Of a stretch of 64,000 nucleotides of DNA, positions 15,441-45,434 are shown piece after piece (the stretch's first letter is position 1; each line of letters starts with the position of its first letter). The DNA comes from Thermotoga caldifontis AZM44c09 (GTDB lineage: Bacteria > Thermotogota > Thermotogae > Thermotogales > DSM-5069), in the NCBI RefSeq assembly GCF_000828655.1, contig NZ_AP014509.1:1-64000 (forward strand). The letters are read 5' to 3'. Made by a program: the position numbers and the translations under genes. The notes beneath the pieces were generated by a model. The model was given only the letters and a program-made list of their open reading frames with translations, was not told where the DNA came from and ran no database searches.

Positions 15441-17888
15441 GTGCCGAAGTACGAACCGAGTGAAATAGAACCGAAATGGCAGAGGTACTGGGAGGAGAGA
15501 GGCCTTTTCAGAACACCTCAGAGGAGTGAAAAGCCCAAATACTACATGCTCGTCATGTTCCCTTATCCTTCTGGAACACTGCACGTCGGACACGTTAAGA
15601 ACTACGTGATAGGCGATGCAGTTGCGCGTTACAAGCGCATGCGTGGTTACAACGTGCTGCATCCGTTCGGTTACGACGCCTTCGGATTGCCCGCGGAGAA
15701 CGCCGCGATCGAAAGGAAGATCCATCCAAAGGACTGGACTCTGAACAACATCAACACGATAAGAAAACAGATAAAACGTCTCGGGATCAGCTACGACTGG
15801 GATAGAGAAATAATCACGTGTCTCGAACCTTACTACAAGTGGACCGAGTGGGTCTTTCTGAAACTGTACGAAGCAGGTCTTGCGTACAAGAAGAAGGCTG
15901 CCGTGAACTGGTGTCCAAAGTGTATGACCTCGCTCGCGAACGAGCAGGTGAAAGATGGAAGATGTGAGCGCTGCGGAACTCCCATAACGATAAGGCACCT
16001 TGAACAGTGGTTCTTCAAGATAACCAATTACGCAGAAAGGCTTTTGAAAGATCTGGATAAGCTCACGGGCTGGCCCGAGCACGTCAAAACGATGCAGCGA
16101 AACTGGATCGGTGAGAGCAAAGGTGCGAAGGTGAAGTTCAAAGTCGAGGGACTCGATGTCGATATCGAGATATTCACAACCAGACCGGACACGCTCTGGG
16201 GTGTCACTTTCATGGCCCTCGCGCCGGAATCACCGTTGGTGGAACAGATCGTCCTGCCAGAACTCAAACACGACCTTGAACAATTCCTTGTACGCGTCAG
16301 CATGCAGGACAGGCACAGAAGGGGTGCGCTCGAAGCAGAAAAGGAAGGCTTCTTCACCGGCAGGTACGCGATAAATCCCGTGAACGGTGAGAGGGTTCCC
16401 ATCTACGTGGCGAACTACATCCTCATGGAGTACGGTACCGGCGCGATCATGGGAGTGCCGGCACACGATCAGAGAGATTACGAATTCGCGAAGAAGTACG
16501 GCATACCGATAAGGCAGGTCATACAGCCTTCCGAACCGTTCAACGAAGATAGAGCTTACGATGGGCCGGGCATCATGGTGAACAGTGGACCATTGAGTGG
16601 AACGAAGGTTCCGGAAGAGATGGAGAAGGTCATAGAATGGCTCGAAGAACGTGGGATCGGAACACGCTCGGTACAGTACAAATTGAGGGACTGGCTCATA
16701 TCCCGCCAGAGATACTGGGGTGCCCCGATACCCATCATCTACTGTGAAAAATGTGGCGTAGTTCCAGTGCCTGAGAAGGATTTACCCGTGACGCTCCCGT
16801 ACGACGTCGAATTCCTGCCGACGGGACAGTCCCCACTGGCGCTGAAAGAAGAATTCAAGAGAACGACCTGTCCGAAATGTGGTGGTCCGGCCACGCGCGA
16901 AGTGGACACGATGGACACCTTCGTCGATTCCTCATGGTACTTCTTGAGGTACATCAATCCCGATTTGGAAGACGCCCCGTTCAAAAAAGAAGACGTGAAC
17001 TACTGGTTGCCGGTCGATCAGTACGTTGGCGGAGTGGAACACGCCATACTCCATTTGCTCTACTCGAGATTCATCACGAAGGTCCTGCACGACCTTGGTT
17101 ATCTCGACTTCGACGAACCCTTCACCAACCTGTTCACGCAGGGCATGATATACAAAGACGGTGCAAAGATGAGCAAGAGTAAGGGGAACGTCGTTTCTCC
17201 CGACGACATGATCGAAAAGTACGGTGCCGACACGTTGAGGCTCTACATACTGTTCATGGGACCTCCCGAGAAGGATGCCGAGTGGAGCGATGCGGGCATC
17301 GAGGGTGTACACAGGTTCATCAGAAGGGCCTGGAACCTCATAGACAAGATCATTTCACTCGAACCTAAGAATTCGTCGAACTTCGGTCCTCGAGAAAGAG
17401 AACTCAGAAGGAAGTTACATTCTGCCCTGCTGAAGATCACGCAGGACATGGAAGGCGGTTTCAAATTCAACACGGCCATCAGTGGCTTGATGGAACTCGT
17501 CAACGACGTGTCGGATTATCTTCAGGAAGTTCCGGAAGATTCGTGGCACGTGCCGCTGTTGAAAGAGTTTGCTGAGAAGTTCGTTTTGATGATCTCTCCG
17601 TTCGCACCGCACTTCGCTGAAGAACTCTGGCACGCGATGGGCAAAACGACATCGATCATGGAGGAACCATGGCCAGAGTACGATCCCGACGCGCTGAAAG
17701 TCGAAGAAGTGGAGATCGCGGTCCAGGTGAACGGTAAACTGAGAGACAGGGTGAAGGTCCCCATCGACGCAACGAAAGAAGAAGTCCTCAGGATCGCTTT
17801 GGAGAGCGAAAAGGTGAAGAAATTCGTGAGCAACAGTCCGAAAGATGCCGTGTACGTTCCAAAAAGATTGCTGAACATCATCGTGTGA
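15441..17888 (+). CDS. leuS: Leucyl-tRNA synthetase
   Basis: Class I synthetase of 815 residues, typical for bacterial LeuRS. Visible: the HIGH-type motif PYPSGTLHVGHVKNY, the CP1 editing domain (TTRPDTLWGVTF), two CxxC zinc pairs (CPKC/CERC and CEKC/CPKC), and KMSKSKGNVV. The GTG start follows GGAGGTGG. The stop codon lies in the ascending arm of a strong terminator. Confidence 0.97.
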   Translation: MPKYEPSEIEPKWQRYWEERGLFRTPQRSEKPKYYMLVMFPYPSGTLHVGHVKNYVIGDAVARYKRMRGYNVLHPFGYDAFGLPAENAAIERKIHPKDWTLNNINTIRKQIKRLGISYDWDREIITCLEPYYKWTEWVFLKLYEAGLAYKKKAAVNWCPKCMTSLANEQVKDGRCERCGTPITIRHLEQWFFKITNYAERLLKDLDKLTGWPEHVKTMQRNWIGESKGAKVKFKVEGLDVDIEIFTTRPDTLWGVTFMALAPESPLVEQIVLPELKHDLEQFLVRVSMQDRHRRGALEAEKEGFFTGRYAINPVNGERVPIYVANYILMEYGTGAIMGVPAHDQRDYEFAKKYGIPIRQVIQPSEPFNEDRAYDGPGIMVNSGPLSGTKVPEEMEKVIEWLEERGIGTRSVQYKLRDWLISRQRYWGAPIPIIYCEKCGVVPVPEKDLPVTLPYDVEFLPTGQSPLALKEEFKRTTCPKCGGPATREVDTMDTFVDSSWYFLRYINPDLEDAPFKKEDVNYWLPVDQYVGGVEHAILHLLYSRFITKVLHDLGYLDFDEPFTNLFTQGMIYKDGAKMSKSKGNVVSPDDMIEKYGADTLRLYILFMGPPEKDAEWSDAGIEGVHRFIRRAWNLIDKIISLEPKNSSNFGPRERELRRKLHSALLKITQDMEGGFKFNTAISGLMELVNDVSDYLQEVPEDSWHVPLLKEFAEKFVLMISPFAPHFAEELWHAMGKTTSIMEEPWPEYDPDALKVEEVEIAVQVNGKLRDRVKVPIDATKEEVLRIALESEKVKKFVSNSPKDAVYVPKRLLNIIV

Positions 17889-20911: not shown

Positions 20912-20917
20912 TATAAT
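20912..20917 (+). promoter_or_regulatory. -10 element of the formate dehydrogenase operon
   Basis: TATAAT lies 35 nt before the fdhA start. On the opposite strand, TATAGT (20910-20915) could serve the divergent cupin, so the two promoters would overlap and compete. No clear -35 is seen for either. Confidence 0.5.
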
Positions 20918-20952
20918 TGTGTAAAAATCACATTCCCACAGGGGGTGAAGGT

Positions 20953-23643
20953 ATGATCATCTTCATTAACGATCGAGCATACGAAGCCAGGGAAGGTCAG
21001 ACCATCTATGATGTTGCGATAGCAAACAACATAGACACACCAATTCTGTGCCACCATCCCGCACTGGAACCTATAGGTGCCTGCCGGATCTGCGTTGTTG
21101 AAGTACAGGGTATGAAAAACCTGCAAACGGCGTGCACGACGAAGGTGACTGACGGAATGCGTATCTACACCAACACAGAGAGAGTCATCAAAGCAAGGCG
21201 CATGAACCTCTTTTTACTCCTGAAGGTTCATCCAAACGATTGTATGACGTGCGACGCAAATGGAAACTGTAAATTACAGGATCTCGCCTACCTGTACAAT
21301 GTAAAAGTTCCCATAGACCAGATCGAGCTGAGGAATCTCCCGATCGATGACAGCAACCCGTTCATAGTGAGAGATTTGAACAAGTGCATCCAGTGTCAGC
21401 TATGTGTCAGGGTATGCGACGAGATAGAGAACATGTCCATCTACTCCATGGTGGAAAGAGGGTACGAAACTTTACCCCAACCAGCCTTCAATTTGCCACT
21501 CGCAGAAAGTGGTTGTGTCTTCTGTGGCCAGTGTGCCACTGTCTGTCCTGTCGGTGCGATAGTGGAGAAACCTGCCCTTGGGAAAGCCAGATGGTGGCAG
21601 GTGAAAAAGACCACGACAGTTTGTCCTTACTGTGGGGTTGGTTGTCTGATAGATGTGTACACCCACAAGCAAGAAGTCGTACGCGTTCATGGGTCTGGTT
21701 ACAATCCAGACGTAAACGATGGTGTTGCCACGTGTGTAAAGGGCAAATTTGGTTTAGACTTTGTGAATGATCCCGCAAGACTCAAGAAACCTCTGATCAA
21801 GAAAGATGGAAAGTTCGTCGAGACCGATTGGGAAGAAGCTCTCGATTATGCGGTTCAAGGGCTTAAGAAAGTCATAGAGAAGTACGGTCCGGAAAGCGTG
21901 GGAATTCTTTCCTCTGCGAAGTGTACCAACGAGGAGAATTACCTAATGCAGAAGTTCGCCCGTGCGGTCATCAAGACGCCCCATGTGGATCACTGCGCCA
22001 GACTCTGCCATGCCTCAACTGTAGCAGGATTGGCACGAGCTTTTGGTAGCGGAGCAATGACGAATAGCCTGAAGGACATCCTCGAGGCCGAAGTCATTCT
22101 TGTAACTGGTTCTAACACGACAGAAGCTCATCCTGTCTACGGTTCAAGGATTAAGAGGGCTGTCAGGAAAGGCACCAAACTCATCGTTGCCGATCCAAGA
22201 AAGATTGAGCTGGTCAAGTATGCGACGATCTGGTTACGGCAGAGACCAGGAACCGATGTGGCCCTGTTCAACGCAATGCTCAATGTGATCATCAAGGAAG
22301 ATTTGATCGATGAGAAATTCATCGCTGAAAGAACGACAAATTTCGAAGAAGTTAAGAAGGCCATCGAAAAATACACTCCGGAGTACGTCGAACAAATCAC
22401 GGGAGTACCAAAAGAAAAAATCGTTCAGGCCGCTCGTCTGTATGCGTCAGCGAAGAGGGCTGCAATAGTCTACGCAATGGGAATAACACAACACGAGCAC
22501 GGTGTGGACAACGTTCTCGCTTTAGCCAACTTGGCACTTGCAACCGGGAACATCGGAAAACCTGGAGCAGGGGTGAATCCACTCAGAGGACAAAACAACG
22601 TCCAGGGAGCTTGTGACATGGGGGCTCTACCCGATGTGCTGCCTGGATATCAAAGAGTGACCGACGCACAGGTTGTTGAGAAATTCGAAAAGGCCTGGAA
22701 AACGACTATCCCAGCCAAAGTTGGCCTCACGGTTGTCGAGATGATCCATGCAGCTCTGGAAGGTAAGATAAAAGCCATGGTCATAATGGGAGAAAACCCG
22801 AGACTTTCGGACCCGGACGCATCTGTCGTGGACGAGGCGCTCTCACGACTCGAGTTTTTCGTGTCCATAGACATGTTCGTAAATGAAACGAACAAACATG
22901 CTCACGTCGTATTCCCAGCGGCTTCTTTTCTGGAAAAAGACGGTACCTTCACCAACACCGAACGACGCGTTCAGTTACTCAGAAAAGCTTTCGAGCCAAT
23001 AGGTGAGAGCAAGCCAGACTGGCAGATCATAATGGAACTCTCCAGAAGGTTTGGCTACCACATGGAGTACCGTTCAACGGCCGAAATCATGGAAGAAATC
23101 AGATCACTCACGCCCATCTACGGTGGAATAACACACGAAAGAATAGAGCTCCTGAAGGGCATACAGTGGCCTTGCAGAACCACAGAAGATACTGGAACGC
23201 CCATACTTCACACCAGCAGGTTCAACACACCCGACGGTAAAGCGAAGTTCCACGTTGTTGAGTACAGACCTTCTCCTGAGCTTCCGGACGATGAATATCC
23301 TTTTTTCCTCACCACAGGTCGATACCTGTTCCATTTCCATACCGGTACCATGACTCGAAGAAGCACTATTGCGAAATACACGAACGAGCCGTTCATCGAA
23401 ATCAACCCTGTGGATGCCGAGAAGCTAGGTATCAAGAACGGTGACGAAGTGTACGTGGTGTCGCGACGTGGAAAGGTGAAGGGTAAAGCGAAAGTCACAG
23501 AAAGAGTGCCACCAAAGACTGTTTTCAGTACTTTCCACTTCTACGAAACACCCATAAATGAACTCACCATGGCAAATCCGCTGGATCCTATTGCAAAGAT
23601 ACCGAATTTTAAAGTCTCAGCTGTGAGGATTGAGAAAGCTTGA
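20953..23643 (+). CDS. fdhA: Formate dehydrogenase, Mo/W-bis-PGD catalytic subunit
   Basis: An 896-residue iron-sulphur molybdo/tungsto-enzyme oxidising formate or reducing CO2. N-terminal part, NuoG-like: a 2Fe-2S domain (Cys 33, 44, 47 and one near 61), a His-Cys 4Fe-4S motif (HPNDCMTC...C) and two 4Fe-4S motifs (CIQCQLCVRVC, CVFCGQCATVC). Catalytic part: CPYCGVGC, then VDHCARLCHASTVAG with Cys352 where many enzymes have selenocysteine, and a C-terminal dinucleotide-binding domain. ATG 20953 has GGGGGTGAAGG upstream. First of a five-gene overlapping operon. Confidence 0.94.
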   Translation: MIIFINDRAYEAREGQTIYDVAIANNIDTPILCHHPALEPIGACRICVVEVQGMKNLQTACTTKVTDGMRIYTNTERVIKARRMNLFLLLKVHPNDCMTCDANGNCKLQDLAYLYNVKVPIDQIELRNLPIDDSNPFIVRDLNKCIQCQLCVRVCDEIENMSIYSMVERGYETLPQPAFNLPLAESGCVFCGQCATVCPVGAIVEKPALGKARWWQVKKTTTVCPYCGVGCLIDVYTHKQEVVRVHGSGYNPDVNDGVATCVKGKFGLDFVNDPARLKKPLIKKDGKFVETDWEEALDYAVQGLKKVIEKYGPESVGILSSAKCTNEENYLMQKFARAVIKTPHVDHCARLCHASTVAGLARAFGSGAMTNSLKDILEAEVILVTGSNTTEAHPVYGSRIKRAVRKGTKLIVADPRKIELVKYATIWLRQRPGTDVALFNAMLNVIIKEDLIDEKFIAERTTNFEEVKKAIEKYTPEYVEQITGVPKEKIVQAARLYASAKRAAIVYAMGITQHEHGVDNVLALANLALATGNIGKPGAGVNPLRGQNNVQGACDMGALPDVLPGYQRVTDAQVVEKFEKAWKTTIPAKVGLTVVEMIHAALEGKIKAMVIMGENPRLSDPDASVVDEALSRLEFFVSIDMFVNETNKHAHVVFPAASFLEKDGTFTNTERRVQLLRKAFEPIGESKPDWQIIMELSRRFGYHMEYRSTAEIMEEIRSLTPIYGGITHERIELLKGIQWPCRTTEDTGTPILHTSRFNTPDGKAKFHVVEYRPSPELPDDEYPFFLTTGRYLFHFHTGTMTRRSTIAKYTNEPFIEINPVDAEKLGIKNGDEVYVVSRRGKVKGKAKVTERVPPKTVFSTFHFYETPINELTMANPLDPIAKIPNFKVSAVRIEKA

Positions 23644-24206
23644 TAGCCATCGTACTGAATGGTGGTAGTTCCCACAGGTTCGGTTCTGATAAATGTAGTT
23701 ATGTCTTCCGCTCGAAGCCGATGATAGAAAACGTGGTAGAAAGGCTCAGGCTCGTTTTCGATCGTGTCGTGCTGGTTGGAAGGACTTATGGAGACTTCGA
23801 GTGTATCGAAGATGAGCTTTGTCGTGGGCCCGTCGGTGGTGTGATGATAGCCTTGCAACGTTTGAAAGATGACGTTTTCGCTGTTGGTTGTGACATGCCA
23901 CTTCTACAACCACACGTTATCAGTTTCATGTGGGAAGTGTTCCGAAGCGGCGACTCAGATGCCGTTGTAGCGAGATTTTGCGATGGGATACACCCGCTGC
24001 ACGCTTTCTATTCAGTGAGGATGATGGAACATTTTCGGTGGAGCATTGAGCAAGGTGACGGCTCTTTCAGATCAGCCCTCGAGCGTGCAAAGGTTGTCTG
24101 GCTGTCGGAAAAGCATCTCTCGCACCTACCCAACTGGCACGAAAGCTTCTTCAACGTGAACGTTCCGAGCGATCTCAATAGAATTGGGGTGGAAGAGTGC
24201 TGCTGA
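23640..24206 (+). CDS. mobA: Molybdenum cofactor guanylyltransferase-like protein
   Basis: Transfers GMP to molybdopterin to make the MGD cofactor that formate dehydrogenase needs. The 188-residue product has the nucleotidyltransferase start IVLNGGSSHRFGSDK (LxGGxSxRxGxDK), GPVGGVMIAL and the metal motif VGCDMPLLQPHVI. TTG 23640 overlaps the fdhA stop (TTGA). Placement between fdhA and fdhD supports the cofactor role. Confidence 0.9.
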   Translation: MIAIVLNGGSSHRFGSDKCSYVFRSKPMIENVVERLRLVFDRVVLVGRTYGDFECIEDELCRGPVGGVMIALQRLKDDVFAVGCDMPLLQPHVISFMWEVFRSGDSDAVVARFCDGIHPLHAFYSVRMMEHFRWSIEQGDGSFRSALERAKVVWLSEKHLSHLPNWHESFFNVNVPSDLNRIGVEECC

Positions 24207-24883
24207 AGATCTTAAGGATAGAATCCAGTGGTAACTGTGTGATCATGAACGATGAGCTGATCGAAGACTCGCTTCTGGATTTCTATGTGAATGACGTTTG
24301 TGTAGAACGGTTTCATTGCCTGGCACAGGACCTTGAGGAACTCGCGCTCGGTCATCTGATATACATGGGTACAAGGCCTAACAGATGGAGCGTGAGGATC
24401 GACAACCGTTCGATAAGAATCTTTCTGGAAGATCACCAGAAAGTTGAAGATGAACTTTTGCCTTTCAAGACAAAAGTGAGCGCAAGAAAGATCATAGAGG
24501 CAATGGAAGACCTTCTGAATGACCCACTGCATAAAACGACCGGTGCGGTACACATCGCAGGATTGTACGATAAAGATGGGAAAAGATTGGTGAGGTTCGA
24601 AGACGTTGGCAGACACAACGTTGTCGATAAAGTGATCGGCTGGATAGTGAAGAACGACGTGCCGGCCGAAGGGAAAATGTTGCTTTGCAGCGGTAGACTT
24701 CCGGCGGACATGGTGTTGAAATGTGTCAGGGCAAGGGTGGAAATTCTGGCATCAAAAGCCCCAGCCTTGATGAGCGCGATAGGGATGGCCCAGCGTTACG
24801 GTCTCACGCTGATCGGCTTCGTGAGGGAAAAGCGAATGAACGTGTACACAAACCCAAGCAGGATAGAGGAGGTGTCCGTATGA
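24197..24883 (+). CDS. fdhD: Formate dehydrogenase accessory protein FdhD
   Basis: FdhD transfers sulphur to the metal cofactor of formate dehydrogenase. The 228 residues contain the family signatures LALGHLIYMG, TGAVHIAGLY, FEDVGRHNVVDKVIGW and TLIGFVREKRMNVY. The mid-protein CxxC loop that carries persulphide in E. coli FdhD is absent: that stretch reads LLPFKTKVSARKII. Remaining cysteines (14, 35, 41 and two C-terminal) are not arranged as CxxC. The start GTG 24197 overlaps mobA by 10 nt. Confidence 0.9.
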   Translation: MLLKILRIESSGNCVIMNDELIEDSLLDFYVNDVCVERFHCLAQDLEELALGHLIYMGTRPNRWSVRIDNRSIRIFLEDHQKVEDELLPFKTKVSARKIIEAMEDLLNDPLHKTTGAVHIAGLYDKDGKRLVRFEDVGRHNVVDKVIGWIVKNDVPAEGKMLLCSGRLPADMVLKCVRARVEILASKAPALMSAIGMAQRYGLTLIGFVREKRMNVYTNPSRIEEVSV

Positions 24884-26809: not shown

Positions 26810-27580
26810 TCACTCAACGTAGATCATCTTCACGGTCATGCCTCCATCGACTGTGAAGTTGACACCCGTGATGAATCCAGATTTTTCGTTGTCCGCCAGG
26901 AACAAGCACAGGTTCGCGATGTCCATGGGATCTCCGACGCGACCCGCCGGGTGTTGTTCGTGATCGATCGGCCTCAATTCTGGCTCTTTCCTCAGAGAGC
27001 CCTTCTTCCACCTCGACGTCTCTATCCATCCCGGACTGATGCACACGACCCTGATTCTGTATTTGGCCAGGCTTATCGCGAGTGAATGGGTCAACGCAAC
27101 CACACCGCCCTTGGATGCGGAGTAGGGCTCGGTGTCTGGCTCCGACATGAATGCCCTCGTGCTGGCGATGTTTATTATGACCCCACCGCCTCTCTTGATC
27201 ATCTGCTCGCTGCAATAACGTGCGCAGATGTAAGGACCTGTCAGGTTCACACGTATGACCTTTTCCCACTCCTCAAGAGTCCTTTCAAAAATACTCTTCG
27301 TGGAACTTATGGCTGCGTTGTTCACCAGAACATCCACACCACCGTAAAACTGCAGGGTCTGTTCGACCATCCTCTTGACGGATCCTTCGTCAGACACATC
27401 GGTTCTTATGAACTTCACATCGTACCCGCTGGACCTCAGAATGCTCTCACGCTCGATCCCAGCCTCTTCGTCTATCTCTGCGATCACCACTTTCATACCG
27501 TTCTGCGCGAACACTTGGGCTATGGCGGCACCTATGCCCTGCCCACCGCCCGTCACGATCGCCACCCTGTTCTTCAACAT
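26810..27580 (-). CDS. Short-chain dehydrogenase/reductase
   Basis: Classical SDR of 256 residues. It has [16 protein letters not shown] (cofactor site), NNAA, the serine in INIAST, the catalytic YSASKGG (YxxxK) and CISPGWIET. An acidic residue after the second strand ([11 protein letters not shown]) suggests NAD(H) preference. The substrate cannot be read from sequence. ATG 27580 follows AGGGGTGAG and overlaps the agmatine deiminase end by 7 nt. Confidence 0.9.
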
Positions 27581-28671
27581 CTTCTCACCCCTAAAGGTTG
27601 TTGTAAAGTTACGCAGTGGATCGCTCCTCCCCCGAGCAGGATCTCGCGCGCATAGACGGGAACGATCTTTCTGTCTGGTAGAATCTCTCTGAACTTTCTC
27701 AGCGCTTCTTCGTCTTTCGGATCGTTGAAGATGGGAACGATCAAAGCACCGTTGGCGAAGTAGAAGTTGACGTACGACGCGGGCAACCTGTACCCCGCAG
27801 GCCTTCTGTGCGTCCTCTCTGAAAAATCAACACCGTTGGCCTCTTCCTCGGTCACGTAGATGGGTGATGGTTGGTGAATCAAATGGATCTTCAGCTTCCT
27901 TCCCTTCGCATCGGTTTCGTTGGAAAGTATTTCGTAATTCTCCCTGCTGATCTCGTATTGCGGATCGTTCCTATCTTCGGTCCAAGTCAGAACGACTTCG
28001 CCCGGCCTGACAAACCTGCACAGGTTGTCCACGTGTCCACTCGTTTCGTCGTTGTACACACCACGCTTCAACCAGATGATCTTCTCAACACCGAGATAGT
28101 CTTTCAAGAATTGCTCTATCTGTTCCTTTGAAAGCTGTGGATTTCTGCTTGGGTTCAGAAGACACTCCTCGGTCGTTACGAGGGTCCCTTCACCATCGAC
28201 ATCGATCGAACCACCTTCGAGGACCATGGGGGCTTGGTAACAGTCCATTTCTTCCATATCGGCGACTTTCAGAGCCACGAGCTCATCCTTGACCCAGGGA
28301 AAGTACAGTCCTCCCCACGCGTTGAACTTCCAGCGCACCGCACGCACGATCCCCTCGTCGTTCACCACGAAGGTTGGACCAACATCGCGCATCCACGCAT
28401 CGTTGCTCGACATTTCGACGATTCTCACGCGTGAGGGAAGTTTCCTTCTCGCGTTGTAGTACTGATCGTGCGAGACGCACAGGGTGACTTTCTCGAACTG
28501 GCTGATGGCCTCAGCGACCTTCGAGTAAGCCTCCTGCGCCGGTTTTGCACCGTTTCTCCAGTTGTCCGATCTTTCTGGCCAGATCATCCAGCACCTTGAA
28601 TGAAGCTCGAATTCTGAGGGCATCCTGAAACCGTCCTCACGCGGGATACTTTTGAGTAGGTTCATCTTCAA
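27574..28671 (-). CDS. aguA: Agmatine deiminase family protein
   Basis: Guanidino-group enzyme that turns agmatine into N-carbamoylputrescine (polyamine route), or a close peptidylarginine-deiminase relative. The 365 residues show [49 protein letters not shown] with the catalytic His, and the catalytic cysteine in [14 protein letters not shown]. The N-terminus ([20 protein letters not shown]) is typical of agmatine deiminases. No carbamoylputrescine amidase is adjacent. Confidence 0.9.
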
Positions 28672-39639: not shown

Positions 39640-40377
39640 CTATTGAAGCCTCCCGAGTTCTTCGACACCTTTTCTGACTGTGTCCTCGACTGCCTTCGCC
39701 AGTTCGACCTCATCTTCGAACTGTGCAGGATCGACTGGCGCATGAACTTTCATCAACACCGTACCGGGATTGAGCACGAGGCTCTTCTTGGGTACCAAGA
39801 ACATTGTACCCCATATCGAAACTGGGAGCACCTTCACTCCGAGTTTCTTGGCGATTTTGAAAGCGGCGGTCTTGAACTCTCGAACCGAGCCATCTTCGCT
39901 CCGTGTACCTTCCGGAAAGATCAAGAAAGATTCCCCTTTTCTGAGTAGATCCATCATCTCTCTTATGACTCGTGCACCCTCGGACGGGTTTTTCCTGTCG
40001 AGGAAAATTCCCTTCATGTAACGAATGTACCAGCTCACTCCAGGCACCCAGGCCAGCTCCTTCTTCGCCACCATCGGCATCGGATCGATGTAACCCAGAA
40101 TCAGAGGTATGTCCATCAAACTCTGATGGTTCGGTGTGACGATGTAGCTGGTGCCAGGTTTGTAATTTTCCAGACCGAGTGCGATCACCTTACAGAACAT
40201 GAACCTGAAGGTGTTCTTGCCGAAAAGCTTGACCTGTTTGAGAACGAACCTTCTCGCTTTCTGTTTTCCCACAAAGAAACCCAGAATCCATCCCAGAAAG
40301 AGCACCAGTGCGCCCACCACCACGACGTAGATGACGGCCGAGACGAGAAAATAGATCGTGATGAGTATTCTTTTCAT
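39640..40377 (-). CDS. plsC: 1-acyl-glycerol-3-phosphate acyltransferase
   Basis: Makes phosphatidic acid from lysophosphatidic acid. The 245 residues start with a membrane segment and carry the acyltransferase motif HX4D in VTPNHQSLMDIPLILG, GIFLDRKNPSEG, FPEGTRSEDGSVREFK, and VLPVSIWGT. ATG 40377 overlaps the E1-like gene stop (ATGA). Confidence 0.93.
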   Translation of the reverse strand: MKRILITIYFLVSAVIYVVVVGALVLFLGWILGFFVGKQKARRFVLKQVKLFGKNTFRFMFCKVIALGLENYKPGTSYIVTPNHQSLMDIPLILGYIDPMPMVAKKELAWVPGVSWYIRYMKGIFLDRKNPSEGARVIREMMDLLRKGESFLIFPEGTRSEDGSVREFKTAAFKIAKKLGVKVLPVSIWGTMFLVPKKSLVLNPGTVLMKVHAPVDPAQFEDEVELAKAVEDTVRKGVEELGRLQ

Positions 40378-41042
40378 GTTGCACCACTCCGAATCGCTAC
40401 AGTTTCAAACCTCATGTTGAAGAGATCTATCAGCATCAGCTTGCCGTTCAACAGAGGTTCCTGTCCGCAGAGCAACCTCACCGCTTCGCTCGCCTGCAAA
40501 GATGCGACGAGAACGACCAGGGGTGGAAAGATCTGTCTCGCTCTATCTTCTTTTGGAGGTGTGGGGAAGATCTGTCTCAATCTCAAAGAGCCTGGTAAGA
40601 TCGTGGTCAATTGTCCACAGAATTTTTCGACACCCGCATGCACCAGCGGAACCTGTTTTTTCTCGCACAGAATGTCCAGTGCGAATTTCGATTCGAAGCT
40701 GTCCAGGCAATCGATCACCACGTCGACGCTCGGAAGGCAAAAATCGACGTCGAGCCTGACGTCCAGTGGGACGATCATGGACTGGGGATTCATTTGAGAC
40801 AGTTTCCTTTGAGCAACCACCACCTTCTTGTGTCCGAGGTCAGATCTGTCGTAGAGGATCTGTCTGTTCAAATCGGGTTCATCCACAACGGCATCATCCA
40901 GTAGATAGACCTGTCCAGCCCCGAGACGGATCAAGAGCGACGAGACCGTGCAACCCAGCCCTCCCACACCAGCGATCAGCACCTTAGCTTTGAAAAGCTT
41001 TTCCATGCATTCTCCGAGCAACTGGCTGTGGCGCTGAAACAT
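40374..41042 (-). CDS. E1-like (MoeB/ThiF/HesA) adenylyltransferase
   Basis: Activates the C-terminal Gly-Gly of a small sulphur carrier with ATP. The 222 residues have the nucleotide loop IAGVGGLGCTVSSLL, VDEPDLNRQILYDRSDLGHKK with the adenylation Arg/Lys set, and IDCLDSFESK with the catalytic Asp. The paired CxxC zinc motifs of MoeB/ThiF are missing (LRLRQIFP stands where CxxC is expected). ATG 41042 follows a MoaD-like gene whose product it may activate. It is not separable into MoeB or ThiF by eye. Confidence 0.88.
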   Translation of the reverse strand: MFQRHSQLLGECMEKLFKAKVLIAGVGGLGCTVSSLLIRLGAGQVYLLDDAVVDEPDLNRQILYDRSDLGHKKVVVAQRKLSQMNPQSMIVPLDVRLDVDFCLPSVDVVIDCLDSFESKFALDILCEKKQVPLVHAGVEKFCGQLTTILPGSLRLRQIFPTPPKEDRARQIFPPLVVLVASLQASEAVRLLCGQEPLLNGKLMLIDLFNMRFETVAIRSGAT

Positions 41043-41043
41043 C

Positions 41044-41331
41044 TCATCCACCACTGACCGGGACGAACACCACGAGCTCCCCATCCCAAACGCTCGAGGG
41101 CGAAAGATCGACCACGTTGATCCCGTTCAACAGTGCGATGACCCAGCTCTTCCTGGCCGTTCCGTTCTCCTCCACGATGAGGTACGCACTGTCGTCTTTG
41201 ATGTCCAGTCGAACCTTTTTGCCGGCCACGTGGGAGATCTGTTCGAATATTTCTTCCTTCCTTCCCGGTTTCACTTCGATTTCTTTCAATCCCACCATTG
41301 TGTCAGCCAGATTCGAGAATTTCACTCGCAC
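41044..41331 (-). CDS. MoaD/ThiS-like ubiquitin-fold sulphur carrier
   Basis: 95 residues ending in GELVVFVPVSGG, the Gly-Gly tail of MoaD/ThiS carriers (family ending: PPVxGG). Upstream strands (VRVKFSNLADTMVGLKEIEV) and NGINVV fit a beta-grasp fold. GTG 41331 is chosen: GGAAGGTGA lies just before it. The E1-like gene begins beside its stop. The role could be molybdopterin, thiamine or tRNA thiolation; none is proven by sequence. Confidence 0.8.
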   Translation of the reverse strand: MRVKFSNLADTMVGLKEIEVKPGRKEEIFEQISHVAGKKVRLDIKDDSAYLIVEENGTARKSWVIALLNGINVVDLSPSSVWDGELVVFVPVSGG

Positions 41332-43269: not shown

Positions 43270-43899
43270 TCACTTCTGTGTGGCTCCTTCTGCCTGATCC
43301 CATCCTTCCAGAACTCTTCTCAGCTCTTCTTCCAAGTCGATCTGGTCTGTGACGTGTACGGTTCTGAAACCGAGCTCTCGCGCGACGTTGACGTTCTCGA
43401 GCTTATCATCGATGAAAACGCTCTCCTGAGGCGCGATACCGTACCTTCGGATCAGCTCGAGGAAGATCTCTTTTTCAGGCTTCGCGAGCTTGACGTGTGA
43501 AGAGATGATCATGCCATCGAAGAATTTGAAAAAGTCGTACTTCTTGTAGACCGTATCGAAATGCCTTTCGCTGAAGTTGGACAGAACGTACAGTTTGAAA
43601 CCTTTCTCTTTGAGCTTTGGGAGAAGTCTCACGTTTTTCTCTATCGGAACTAAGAGCTCTATCACCGCTTTCTTCATGTGCAGTATGTACTCTTTCAGAT
43701 GTGGTAGCTCTTCCGTCTTCTTCTGCCACAGCTGTTCTTCGTTCATGAGCCCCTTATCCATCAACCAGAAATCCCTGCTCTCAAAGATCTTTTCGTTCAT
43801 CTCGTCCGCCACGTGCTTTGGAAACGTCTTCAGCATGTACTGGTACGGCTCCCAGCTGAGCAAAACCCTTCCAAGATCGAAGACGATGTTTTTGATCAC
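43270..43899 (-). CDS. HAD-superfamily hydrolase (YihX-like)
   Basis: 209 residues. Motif I VFDLGRVLLSW has Gly at the acid/base position, a variant seen in YihX-type members. Motif II LYVLSNFSE, motif III lysine LAKPEKEIF, motif IV VFIDDKLENV. It is probably a small-molecule phosphatase. GTG 43899 follows AAGGAGG. It is divergent from the cysE operon. Confidence 0.88.
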   Translation of the reverse strand: MIKNIVFDLGRVLLSWEPYQYMLKTFPKHVADEMNEKIFESRDFWLMDKGLMNEEQLWQKKTEELPHLKEYILHMKKAVIELLVPIEKNVRLLPKLKEKGFKLYVLSNFSERHFDTVYKKYDFFKFFDGMIISSHVKLAKPEKEIFLELIRRYGIAPQESVFIDDKLENVNVARELGFRTVHVTDQIDLEEELRRVLEGWDQAEGATQK

Positions 43900-44018
43900 A
43901 TCGAATCCTCCTTCAACCAGAATGCTGGTGGATCCTGTTTTTGATTATAAACGCTCCTTAAACGTCCGTTCGCAATGTTCTGGTATCATAAAATCAGACT
44001 TCATAAGGAGGTGTTTTT

Positions 44019-44045
44019 ATGCTCGTGGGGTGCGTTGGTTCGTAA
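44019..44045 (+). other. Possible leader peptide or frameshifted cysE start
   Basis: An excellent ribosome site (AAGGAGGTG) lies 6 nt before ATG 44019, but that ATG reads only 8 codons (MLVGCVGS, including a Cys codon) and stops at 44045. The cysE frame overlaps it in another phase from GTG 44030. One extra G in the GGGG run would join this ATG to cysE. Either a Cys-containing leader or an indel may explain it. Confidence 0.45.
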
Positions 44046-44656
44046 AGGCCGTCAAGGAAGATGTGAAGGCGTACCTTCGCCTTGATCCTGCCACCTCGAA
44101 CGTGTTCCAGCTGATTTTCTTCAACGCTTCCTTCCAAGGCTTACTCCTCTACAGAATCTCCCACCTCTTCTACCGATGGAAAATTTACCCTCTGGCCTAT
44201 GTTTTTCATTATCTGTGTCGCGTGCTCTTTTCGATGGACATCCACCCGGCCGCGGAGATCGAACCCGGTGTGGTCATAGACCACGGGATCGGTGTGGTGA
44301 TCGGCGCGACCGCAACCGTGAAAAGTGGTACCGTGATCTACCACGGTGTGACGCTGGGTGCGAAACGCATCTGCTCTGGAAAAAGACATCCTGATGTGGG
44401 CCGAAACGTGATCATCGGAGCCGGAGCCAAGATACTCGGTCCGATAAGAGTTGGTGACAACTCCGTCATCGGAGCGAACGCCGTTGTTCTGAACGACGTG
44501 CCGGAGAACTGTCTCGCTGTGGGAATTCCCGCAAGGATCGTAAGAAGGAGGGATGAGAATGCTGAACTTAGTGGGCAACACACCGATTGTGAGATTGAAA
44601 ACGGAACCGAGGGTGTTCGTCAAACTCGAGAGGAACAACCCGTGGGGAAGTGTTAA
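44030..44656 (+). CDS. cysE: Serine O-acetyltransferase
   Basis: Makes O-acetylserine from serine and acetyl-CoA. About 208 residues: helical start (FVKAVKEDVKAYLRLDPATS), then the left-handed beta-helix with DIHPAAEIEPGVVIDHGIG, VIYHGVTLGAKRI, RHPDVGRNVIIGAGAKILG, ending at VGIPARIVRRR. The last ~34 residues (DENAELSG...) lie inside cysK in another frame and look non-native. GTG 44030 is used for want of a better in-frame start; its own ribosome site is poor. Confidence 0.9.
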   Translation: MRWFVKAVKEDVKAYLRLDPATSNVFQLIFFNASFQGLLLYRISHLFYRWKIYPLAYVFHYLCRVLFSMDIHPAAEIEPGVVIDHGIGVVIGATATVKSGTVIYHGVTLGAKRICSGKRHPDVGRNVIIGAGAKILGPIRVGDNSVIGANAVVLNDVPENCLAVGIPARIVRRRDENAELSGQHTDCEIENGTEGVRQTREEQPVGKC

Positions 44657-45434
44657 AGATAGACCGGCCCTCTTCATGATCGAAGCGGCAGAAAAGAAAG
44701 GACTGATAAAGAATGGCGTCATCGTCGAGCCAACCAGCGGTAACATGGGCATCGCCCTGGCCGCGATAGGTGCCCTGAAAGGGTTCAAGGTGATACTGAC
44801 GATGCCAGAGAGCGTGAGCCAGGAGAGGGTGAAACTTCTGAAGGGCTACGGTGCGGAGGTTGTTCTGACACCCGCCGAAAGGGGCATGAGCGGAGCGATC
44901 GAGAAGGCGCATCAAATCGTTCAAGAACTGGACGCCTACATGCCCAACCAGTTCGAAAATTTCTACAACGTGCTCGCGCACGAGACCACCACGGCGCACG
45001 AAATTCTCACCCAGATGAACTACAGAATCGATGCCTTCGTTGCCGGTGTCGGCACGGGTGGAACCATCACCGGGGTGGGAAGGGTTCTAAAAAAACTCTA
45101 CGGAGAAAGGGTCATGGTCGTGGCTGTGGAACCTGCGAGCTCTCCGGTTCTTTCGAAAGGCGTGGCTGGAAGTCACAGGATCCAGGGCATAGGTGCGGGA
45201 TTCGTACCGAAGATTCTGGATCTGTCCGTAGTTGATAGAATAGAAACGGTCACAGACGACGAAGCGTTCGAAACTGTGAAGTTTCTGATGAAAAAGGAAG
45301 CCCTGGCCCTCGGCATCTCGAGCGGGGCGAACGTGGCGGTGGCCCTGAGGATCGCTCGACAGCTCCCCGAGGATGCGCGCGTGGTCACGATCGCCCCGGA
45401 CGGGTTTGAAAAGTACCTGAGCGTGTTCTCATGA
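44559..45434 (+). CDS. cysK: Cysteine synthase (O-acetylserine sulfhydrylase)
   Basis: PLP enzyme making cysteine from O-acetylserine and sulphide. The 291 residues show LVGNTPIVRL, the PLP lysine in NPWGSVKDRPA, EPTSGNMGIALA (phosphate and substrate loop), VAGVGTGGTITGVGRVLK, and GISSGANVAVAL near the C-terminus. ATG 44559 is preferred over 44553 by its spacing to AGGAGG. It overlaps cysE by 98 nt. Confidence 0.95.
   Translation: MLNLVGNTPIVRLKTEPRVFVKLERNNPWGSVKDRPALFMIEAAEKKGLIKNGVIVEPTSGNMGIALAAIGALKGFKVILTMPESVSQERVKLLKGYGAEVVLTPAERGMSGAIEKAHQIVQELDAYMPNQFENFYNVLAHETTTAHEILTQMNYRIDAFVAGVGTGGTITGVGRVLKKLYGERVMVVAVEPASSPVLSKGVAGSHRIQGIGAGFVPKILDLSVVDRIETVTDDEAFETVKFLMKKEALALGISSGANVAVALRIARQLPEDARVVTIAPDGFEKYLSVFS

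Follow-up and report, generated by a model that had tools for sequence, protein, structure and literature searches.

Gene layout and structure of the pair

The window analysed here comprises bases 1–64000 of the single-contig, 2,014,912-base genome of Thermotoga caldifontis AZM44c09 (G000). On its minus strand, an open reading frame at 41044–41331 starts with GTG at 41331, has a stop codon ending at 41044 and encodes a 95-residue MoaD-like β-grasp sulphur carrier with the C-terminal tail FVPVSGG, as a sequence-only reading of this DNA had described. The gene that follows directly (40374–41042, minus strand) encodes a zinc-less MoeB/ThiF-type E1 of 222 residues, counted from an ATG at 41042 that lies one base past the carrier stop codon; its own stop ends at 40374. 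In-frame GTG codons just 5′ of this ATG would overlap the carrier, and the profile searches used the E1 as 40374–41048 (224 residues). The E1 stop overlaps, at 40377, the start of a plsC-like acyltransferase gene (39640–40377, minus strand; Pfam Acyltransferase, E = 5.7e-31), so that the carrier, E1 and plsC genes form one minus-strand unit, again as first described. plsC is a conserved neighbour of the E1: the order E1–plsC–BFN nuclease–polyprenyl synthase recurs in all four f1 relatives read (L083–L086), whose genes were named by resemblance to the Pfam-scanned genes of the window. Scanning for promoters and terminators gave nothing usable above chance.

The carrier reading frame is not a chance one, because it is conserved in 16 sequences and its codon differences from three same-genus relatives are mostly synonymous (20 versus 6, 38 versus 17 and 46 versus 16, synonymous first). 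G94 and G95 are invariant in all 16 aligned sequences. The AF2 model built from this alignment adopts a β-grasp fold with a mean pLDDT of 94.7. Among its PDB neighbours, Urm1 (4wwm, Z 8.5) heads a list that also holds a Thermus MoaD-related protein (1v8c, Z 7.7) and SAMP1, and ranks 1–18 are mostly MoaD, Urm1 and SAMP proteins. E. coli MoaD (1fm0_D) aligned with Z 6.1 and an rmsd of 3.1 over 74 residues, and TtuB (5gha_H) with Z 4.8; a fold of this size is expected to give only moderate Z values. These values come from a second structural comparison; with Foldseek alone, the carrier model had no hit reaching E ≤ 0.001, although the top rows were still proteins of the same kind.

Family models recognize the carrier poorly. 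Pfam gave no model at E ≤ 1, leaving it below the ThiS cut-off, and the protein fell under every NCBIfam cut-off, with moaD_arch (TIGR01687) at only E 0.11; annotation may therefore have missed moaD. Within the carrier family, 12 of the 16 proteins matched TIGR01687 with E ≤ 1, the best of them at 4.7e-7. Profile–profile comparison (hhalign) linked the family to the classical MoaD of AOR/FDH operons (97.3%, E 2e-11), and identities of 20–27% to four aligned f9/f5 carriers mark it as a divergent subfamily.

The E1 matched Pfam ThiF with E 3.3e-50 and passed no NCBIfam cut-off. Its best model was NF006204 (154.8 of 339 bits), which we take to represent a Thermococcales family (PRK08328); MoeB and ThiF models came next, and the score against the MoeB equivalog TIGR02355 was 114.9 bits, below the cut-off of 376.55. 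The AF2 model of the E1 (pLDDT 90.7) was closest to E. coli MoeB from the MoeB–MoaD complex (1jw9_B; Z 31.5, rmsd 1.8, 220 residues), with ThiF tied. An alignment to MoeB bears out the nucleotide and Asp motifs first noticed in the sequence: the GVGGLG motif coincides with that of MoeB, and D51, R62, K75 and D116 align to MoeB D62, R73, K86 and D130, presumably the catalytic residues. The two CxxC zinc pairs are indeed missing, since no CxxC occurs anywhere in the window E1; the first CxxC of MoeB lies opposite non-cysteine residues, and the alignment stops short of the second. The crossover-loop cysteine of ThiF/MoeB, which has a role in E1 function, likewise lacks a counterpart there. The predicted folds, the Gly-Gly tail, the gene layout and co-conservation collectively back the original assignment of the two genes as a sulphur-carrier pair.

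We also considered that the pair chiefly conjugates its carrier to proteins, as a SAMP/Urm1-like modifier, with sulphur transfer secondary. The NCBIfam SAMP1 and Urm1_like models match 13 and 8 of the 16 carrier-family members, respectively (E up to 1), Urm1 is first in the structural list, and the available text of a Thermococcus kodakarensis study mentions protein attachment as a further fate of Thermus TtuB, SAMPs and T. kodakarensis Ubls (PMC11323500). Yet the E1 lacks the crossover-loop cysteine by alignment, the neighbourhoods listed, which are partly annotated, showed neither an E2 nor a JAB gene, and the operon links of relatives are to cofactor genes, making a main role in conjugation very improbable.

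Cofactor and sulphur genes in the T. caldifontis genome

Throughout the 2.01-Mb genome, no other ThiF-family gene and no second MoaD/ThiS-domain carrier scored over cut-off, so the pair is the sole recognizable carrier-thiocarboxylate source for the cofactor pathway of formate dehydrogenase (FDH). One weak ThiS-domain match, at 898779–898865, was rejected as a second carrier; it lies inside a 712-residue RelA/SpoT-like protein with a TGS domain, named by eye. The sequence-only reading had named in advance what would speak against it, namely a full MoaD/MoeB set elsewhere together with a short protein lacking a β-grasp fold; no other set scores over cut-off, and the β-grasp fold is present.

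The window encodes an FDH alpha subunit, a molybdopterin dinucleotide enzyme (20917–23643, plus strand; Pfam Molybdopterin 2e-85, Molydop_binding 3.8e-32). Adjoining it are genes for a MobA-like nucleotidyltransferase (23640–24206, plus strand; NTP_transf_3 1.5e-26) and an FdhD/NarQ family protein of FDH sulphuration (24197–24883, plus strand; FdhD-NarQ 3.5e-49); a formate transporter is also encoded in the 64 kb. This FDH is the probable end user of the cofactor. The window pair is not beside Mo/W genes, the FDH gene being ~17 kb off. Searching the genome for moaA, moaC, moaE and thiG, as had been proposed, found MoaA and MoaC and neither MoaE nor a true ThiG; the MoaA, MoaC and MOSC genes are grouped together. 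The best ThiG match (E 1.1e-9) covers only profile positions 175–225 and was taken for another barrel, and the lack of a true ThiG rules out a thiamine role. Full-length ThiG occurred only in G024 and G050 among 61 genomes. TtuA, the tRNA-thiolation enzyme, is encoded in the genome (TIGR00269 match at G000 C1:265817-266113; L057 8784–9752, Pfam TtuA_LIM_N 1.1e-11).

Two further genes lie in tandem on the plus strand 2–3 kb from the pair, encoding a hexapeptide (serine acetyltransferase-like) protein at 43577–44656 and a PALP (cysteine synthase-like) protein at 44553–45434. Elsewhere in the window, 27574–28671 (minus strand) encodes an agmatine/peptidyl-arginine deiminase family protein (PAD_porph 1.7e-130). 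The proximity of the tandem could suggest that the pair serves cysteine or methionine synthesis in the manner of CysO/HcyS, with the two neighbouring proteins as clients. We find this scarcely credible: the tandem is on the strand opposite to the pair and resembles what we assume to be an ordinary free-sulphide CysE–CysK layout; hexapeptide/PALP genes lie close to the pair of G004 (L083), yet the listed stretches of L084, L085 and L086 contain none; and such a role would leave the tracking of MoaA, described below, unexplained.

A zinc-less E1 clade and its neighbourhoods

To place the window E1 among its relatives, we drew on 103 Thermotogota genomes. The E1 profile matched 65 of them, and CxxC motifs were checked in 44; the other 21, all scoring ≤116 bits, are unclassed, which makes the count of 40 zinc-less genomes of 103 a minimum. 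The checked set had 45 E1 rows, comprising those 44 genomes and one Halarchaeum locus; 40 rows held no CxxC and five held two. The locus search for relatives also gave one distant CxxC-bearing locus, L035. In a midpoint-rooted tree of 41 rows, with G013, G033 and G047 as long branches, a branch with support 97/96 separates 36 zinc-less from five zinc-type rows, and on its zinc-less side the window E1 and the AOR/moaA-linked E1s of genus g20 share a branch of 26 rows (94/94). The missing zinc site is thus a trait of an E1 clade. Beside one zinc-type E1, that of G027, a MoaD-like protein (L028 1154–1429, plus strand) ends in GGDEN, three residues past Gly-Gly, and would therefore need trimming before activation.

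We read 29 neighbourhoods of zinc-less E1s, the window included (G097, L141, is in the CxxC check but outside the 29), and Mo/W genes adjoin the E1 in 12 of them. Neighbour names are Pfam-confirmed in L131 (14 proteins), L128 (3) and L136 (3), and genes at the other loci were named by resemblance. The order AOR–MoaD–E1–radical SAM is found in G052, G065 and G067, and AOR–MoaD–E1 in G087, G089, G090 and G092, with moaB–moaC–moaA directly after in G087 and the AOR frame split in G089. The E1 of G088 adjoins moaA–moaC–moaB. G094, G095 and G096 share FDH–mobA–MoaD–E1 followed by ferredoxin and AOR and, where the listed stretch extends, a transporter, a mobB-like gene, moeA, moaA, moaC, MOSC and moaB; at L131 the MobA-like gene (16493–17089) sits between FDH and MoaD–E1. 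At a deletion-like junction in G098 (L134 4528–6883), an E1 that has lost its N-terminus directly adjoins moaB, MOSC and a truncated moaC, and moaA, moeA, AOR, mobA and FDH of the sister operons are gone, which looks like a recent loss of the Mo/W operon. The pair is accompanied by plsC instead of Mo/W genes in the window's own family, and by hydF and an aspartase-like lyase in rows that we label Thermosipho-like (Pfam-confirmed for L094).

Co-occurrence with MoaA and TtuA

MoaA (PF06463) was detected in 33 of the 103 genomes. The zinc-less E1 is present in 27 of these 33 versus 13 of the 70 MoaA-negative genomes (Fisher p 9e-10), and it is broken or degenerate in none of the 27 versus six of the 13 (p 4e-4), both p values being too small because related genomes were treated as independent. 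The co-decay, which spans several genera, is together with the operons a stronger argument than these p values. Stop codons interrupt both E1 and carrier in the MoaA-negative G016 and G026 (loci L098 and L143), both Thermosipho-like; of the other damaged E1s in MoaA-negative genomes, that of G055 has an internal gap, those of G013 and G029 have lost the Gly and RQ motifs, and that of G098 lacks its N-terminus. In seven MoaA-negative genomes no lesion was detected in the zinc-less E1, that of G064 being a contig-edge fragment, as is the E1 of G002 among the 27 MoaA-positive rows; G089 was scored MoaA-positive although its MoaA match contains two stops. The six MoaA-positive genomes without an identified zinc-less E1 comprise G047 and G056 with CxxC-type E1s, G059 with weak partial matches only, G069 with an E1 match outside the CxxC check, and G046 and G066 with no listed match.

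This pattern bears on a reading in which the pair is of the TtuB/TtuC type, the carrier giving sulphur to TtuA for 2-thiouridine of s2T54, and the Mo/W association is incidental. TtuA is encoded in the pair's genome, every MoaA-negative genome with a zinc-less E1 in the 61-genome set has a TtuA match, and dual carrier use has precedent in the available text of PMC11323500. However, TtuA (TIGR00269), present in 46 of the 61 genomes, does not track the zinc-less E1, which occurs in 22 of 46 TtuA-positive versus 4 of 15 TtuA-negative genomes (p 0.23). All four genomes with a zinc-less E1 and no TtuA match have MoaA, so that every zinc-less-E1 genome among the 61 has TtuA or MoaA. Additionally, G016 and G026 (below the curated cut-off) and G055 (above it) keep a TtuA match despite a broken E1, and T. 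maritima lacks TtuB, for which sulphide can substitute, according to the available text of PMC7138817. We therefore regard an exclusive TtuB/TtuC-type role as unlikely.

Absence of MoaE

MoaE is the large subunit of molybdopterin synthase and the usual partner of MoaD. No MoaE (PF02391) was detected in either the 61-genome or the 103-genome Thermotogota set (0/61 and 0/103), G000 included; as a control, the same search was positive in 11 of 14 reference genomes. The carrier–E1 pair is present in G006 (L013). According to the available text of PMC4148951, molybdopterin genes are found in T. thermarum and T. lettingae, but their moaD and moaE escaped identification. Beyond that T. thermarum remark, the mainly open-access literature, in the text available, yielded no report of a Thermotogota-wide MoaE absence, nor any of a zinc-less E1 family.

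MOSC-domain proteins are encoded with moaA–moaC (L128 11252–11713, L131 2753–3211 and G000 C1:245466-245780, all minus strand), and MOSC was found in 19 of 19 MoaA-positive versus 2 of 42 other genomes of the 61-genome set. The GKxC cysteine is absent in three aligned sequences of genus g36, in an alignment of 15 motif-found sequences from 13 loci; the remaining six of 19 loci, the window's genome among these, gave no motif match. MOSC proteins are commonly Mo-linked anyway. For this reason, and because of the cysteine missing in g36, MOSC as a MoaE substitute is a weak lead, although the MOSC protein of the moaA–moaC cluster is the only candidate seen for an acceptor that would hold cPMP.

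Discussion

We conclude that the pair probably fills the MoaD/MoeB role in a molybdopterin (Mo/W cofactor) pathway of Thermotogota that lacks MoaE. Among the uses first listed for it, Mo/W-pterin synthesis appears the best supported, judging by operons in relatives, co-occurrence with MoaA and decay upon MoaA loss; tRNA thiolation via TtuA is a possible second use, and thiamine synthesis falls away with ThiG. Against this conclusion count the distance of the window pair from Mo/W genes, the divergence of its carrier, the MoaA-negative genomes that keep an intact zinc-less E1, the MoaA-positive ones in which none was identified, and the absence of MoaE as the normal partner. By analogy with MoeB and MoaD, the E1 would bind ATP and adenylate the C-terminal glycine of the carrier. 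Since the E1 has neither a zinc site nor a crossover-loop cysteine, the acyl-adenylate is probably attacked directly, with sulphide or a desulphurase persulphide as the putative attacker, generating a C-terminal thiocarboxylate on the carrier. From this thiocarboxylate the MoaA/MoaC product would receive its dithiolene sulphurs with no recognizable MoaE involved, and the resulting cofactor would go to the window FDH; the charged carrier may feed TtuA too. Adenylation, thiocarboxylate, client and sulphur source are all inferred. More speculatively, and with rather low expectation, the Thermotogota molybdopterin synthase as a whole could be MoaE-free, with the zinc-less E1 charging the divergent carrier while a protein from a different family holds cPMP and takes the sulphurs.

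The window pair shares with E. coli MoaD–MoeB (1jw9, 1fm0) the folds, the carrier–E1 logic, the GG tail and the adenylation residues, but it lacks the zinc site, its genome has no MoaE match, and its carrier falls under the Pfam ThiS cut-off. Its tandem layout recalls TK2118–TK2117 (UblB–E1), which serve the tungsten cofactor in the hyperthermophile T. kodakarensis; that organism has three carriers versus one in the window genome. As far as the available text of that study goes, TK2117 forms PPi with TK2118, encoded in the same operon; in sulphur-poor media, growth on maltodextrin and W-enzyme activity depend on UblB, and with a rich sulphur supply molybdopterin does not require the Ubls (PMC11323500). 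AOR-linked MoaD/MoeB clusters have been described (Iyer et al. 2006, PMC1779556, in the text available), and the zinc-less E1 relatives L093, L128, L136 and others show the same layout, whereas the window pair is detached from AOR and lies with plsC instead. Thermus TtuB–TtuC–TtuA may use the same chemistry, TtuA is in the genome and TtuB is in the carrier's structural list; in contrast to that system, the E1 here lacks the CxxC pairs and the crossover cysteine, and no significant co-occurrence with TtuA was seen. Acetogens offer a parallel, with a Mo cofactor pathway for which MoaE is not reported in the available text (PMC5039349).

The pair likely fills half of the gap published for T. thermarum, supplying MoaD and MoeB there (PMC4148951, in the text available). 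The missing MoaE extends to every searched genome of one phylum (0/103), which joins the acetogens in this respect (PMC5039349, likewise). Our results also show that a whole E1 clade can lack the zinc site of MoeB. Dithiolene formation without MoaE thereby becomes testable in operons that seemingly hold all else.
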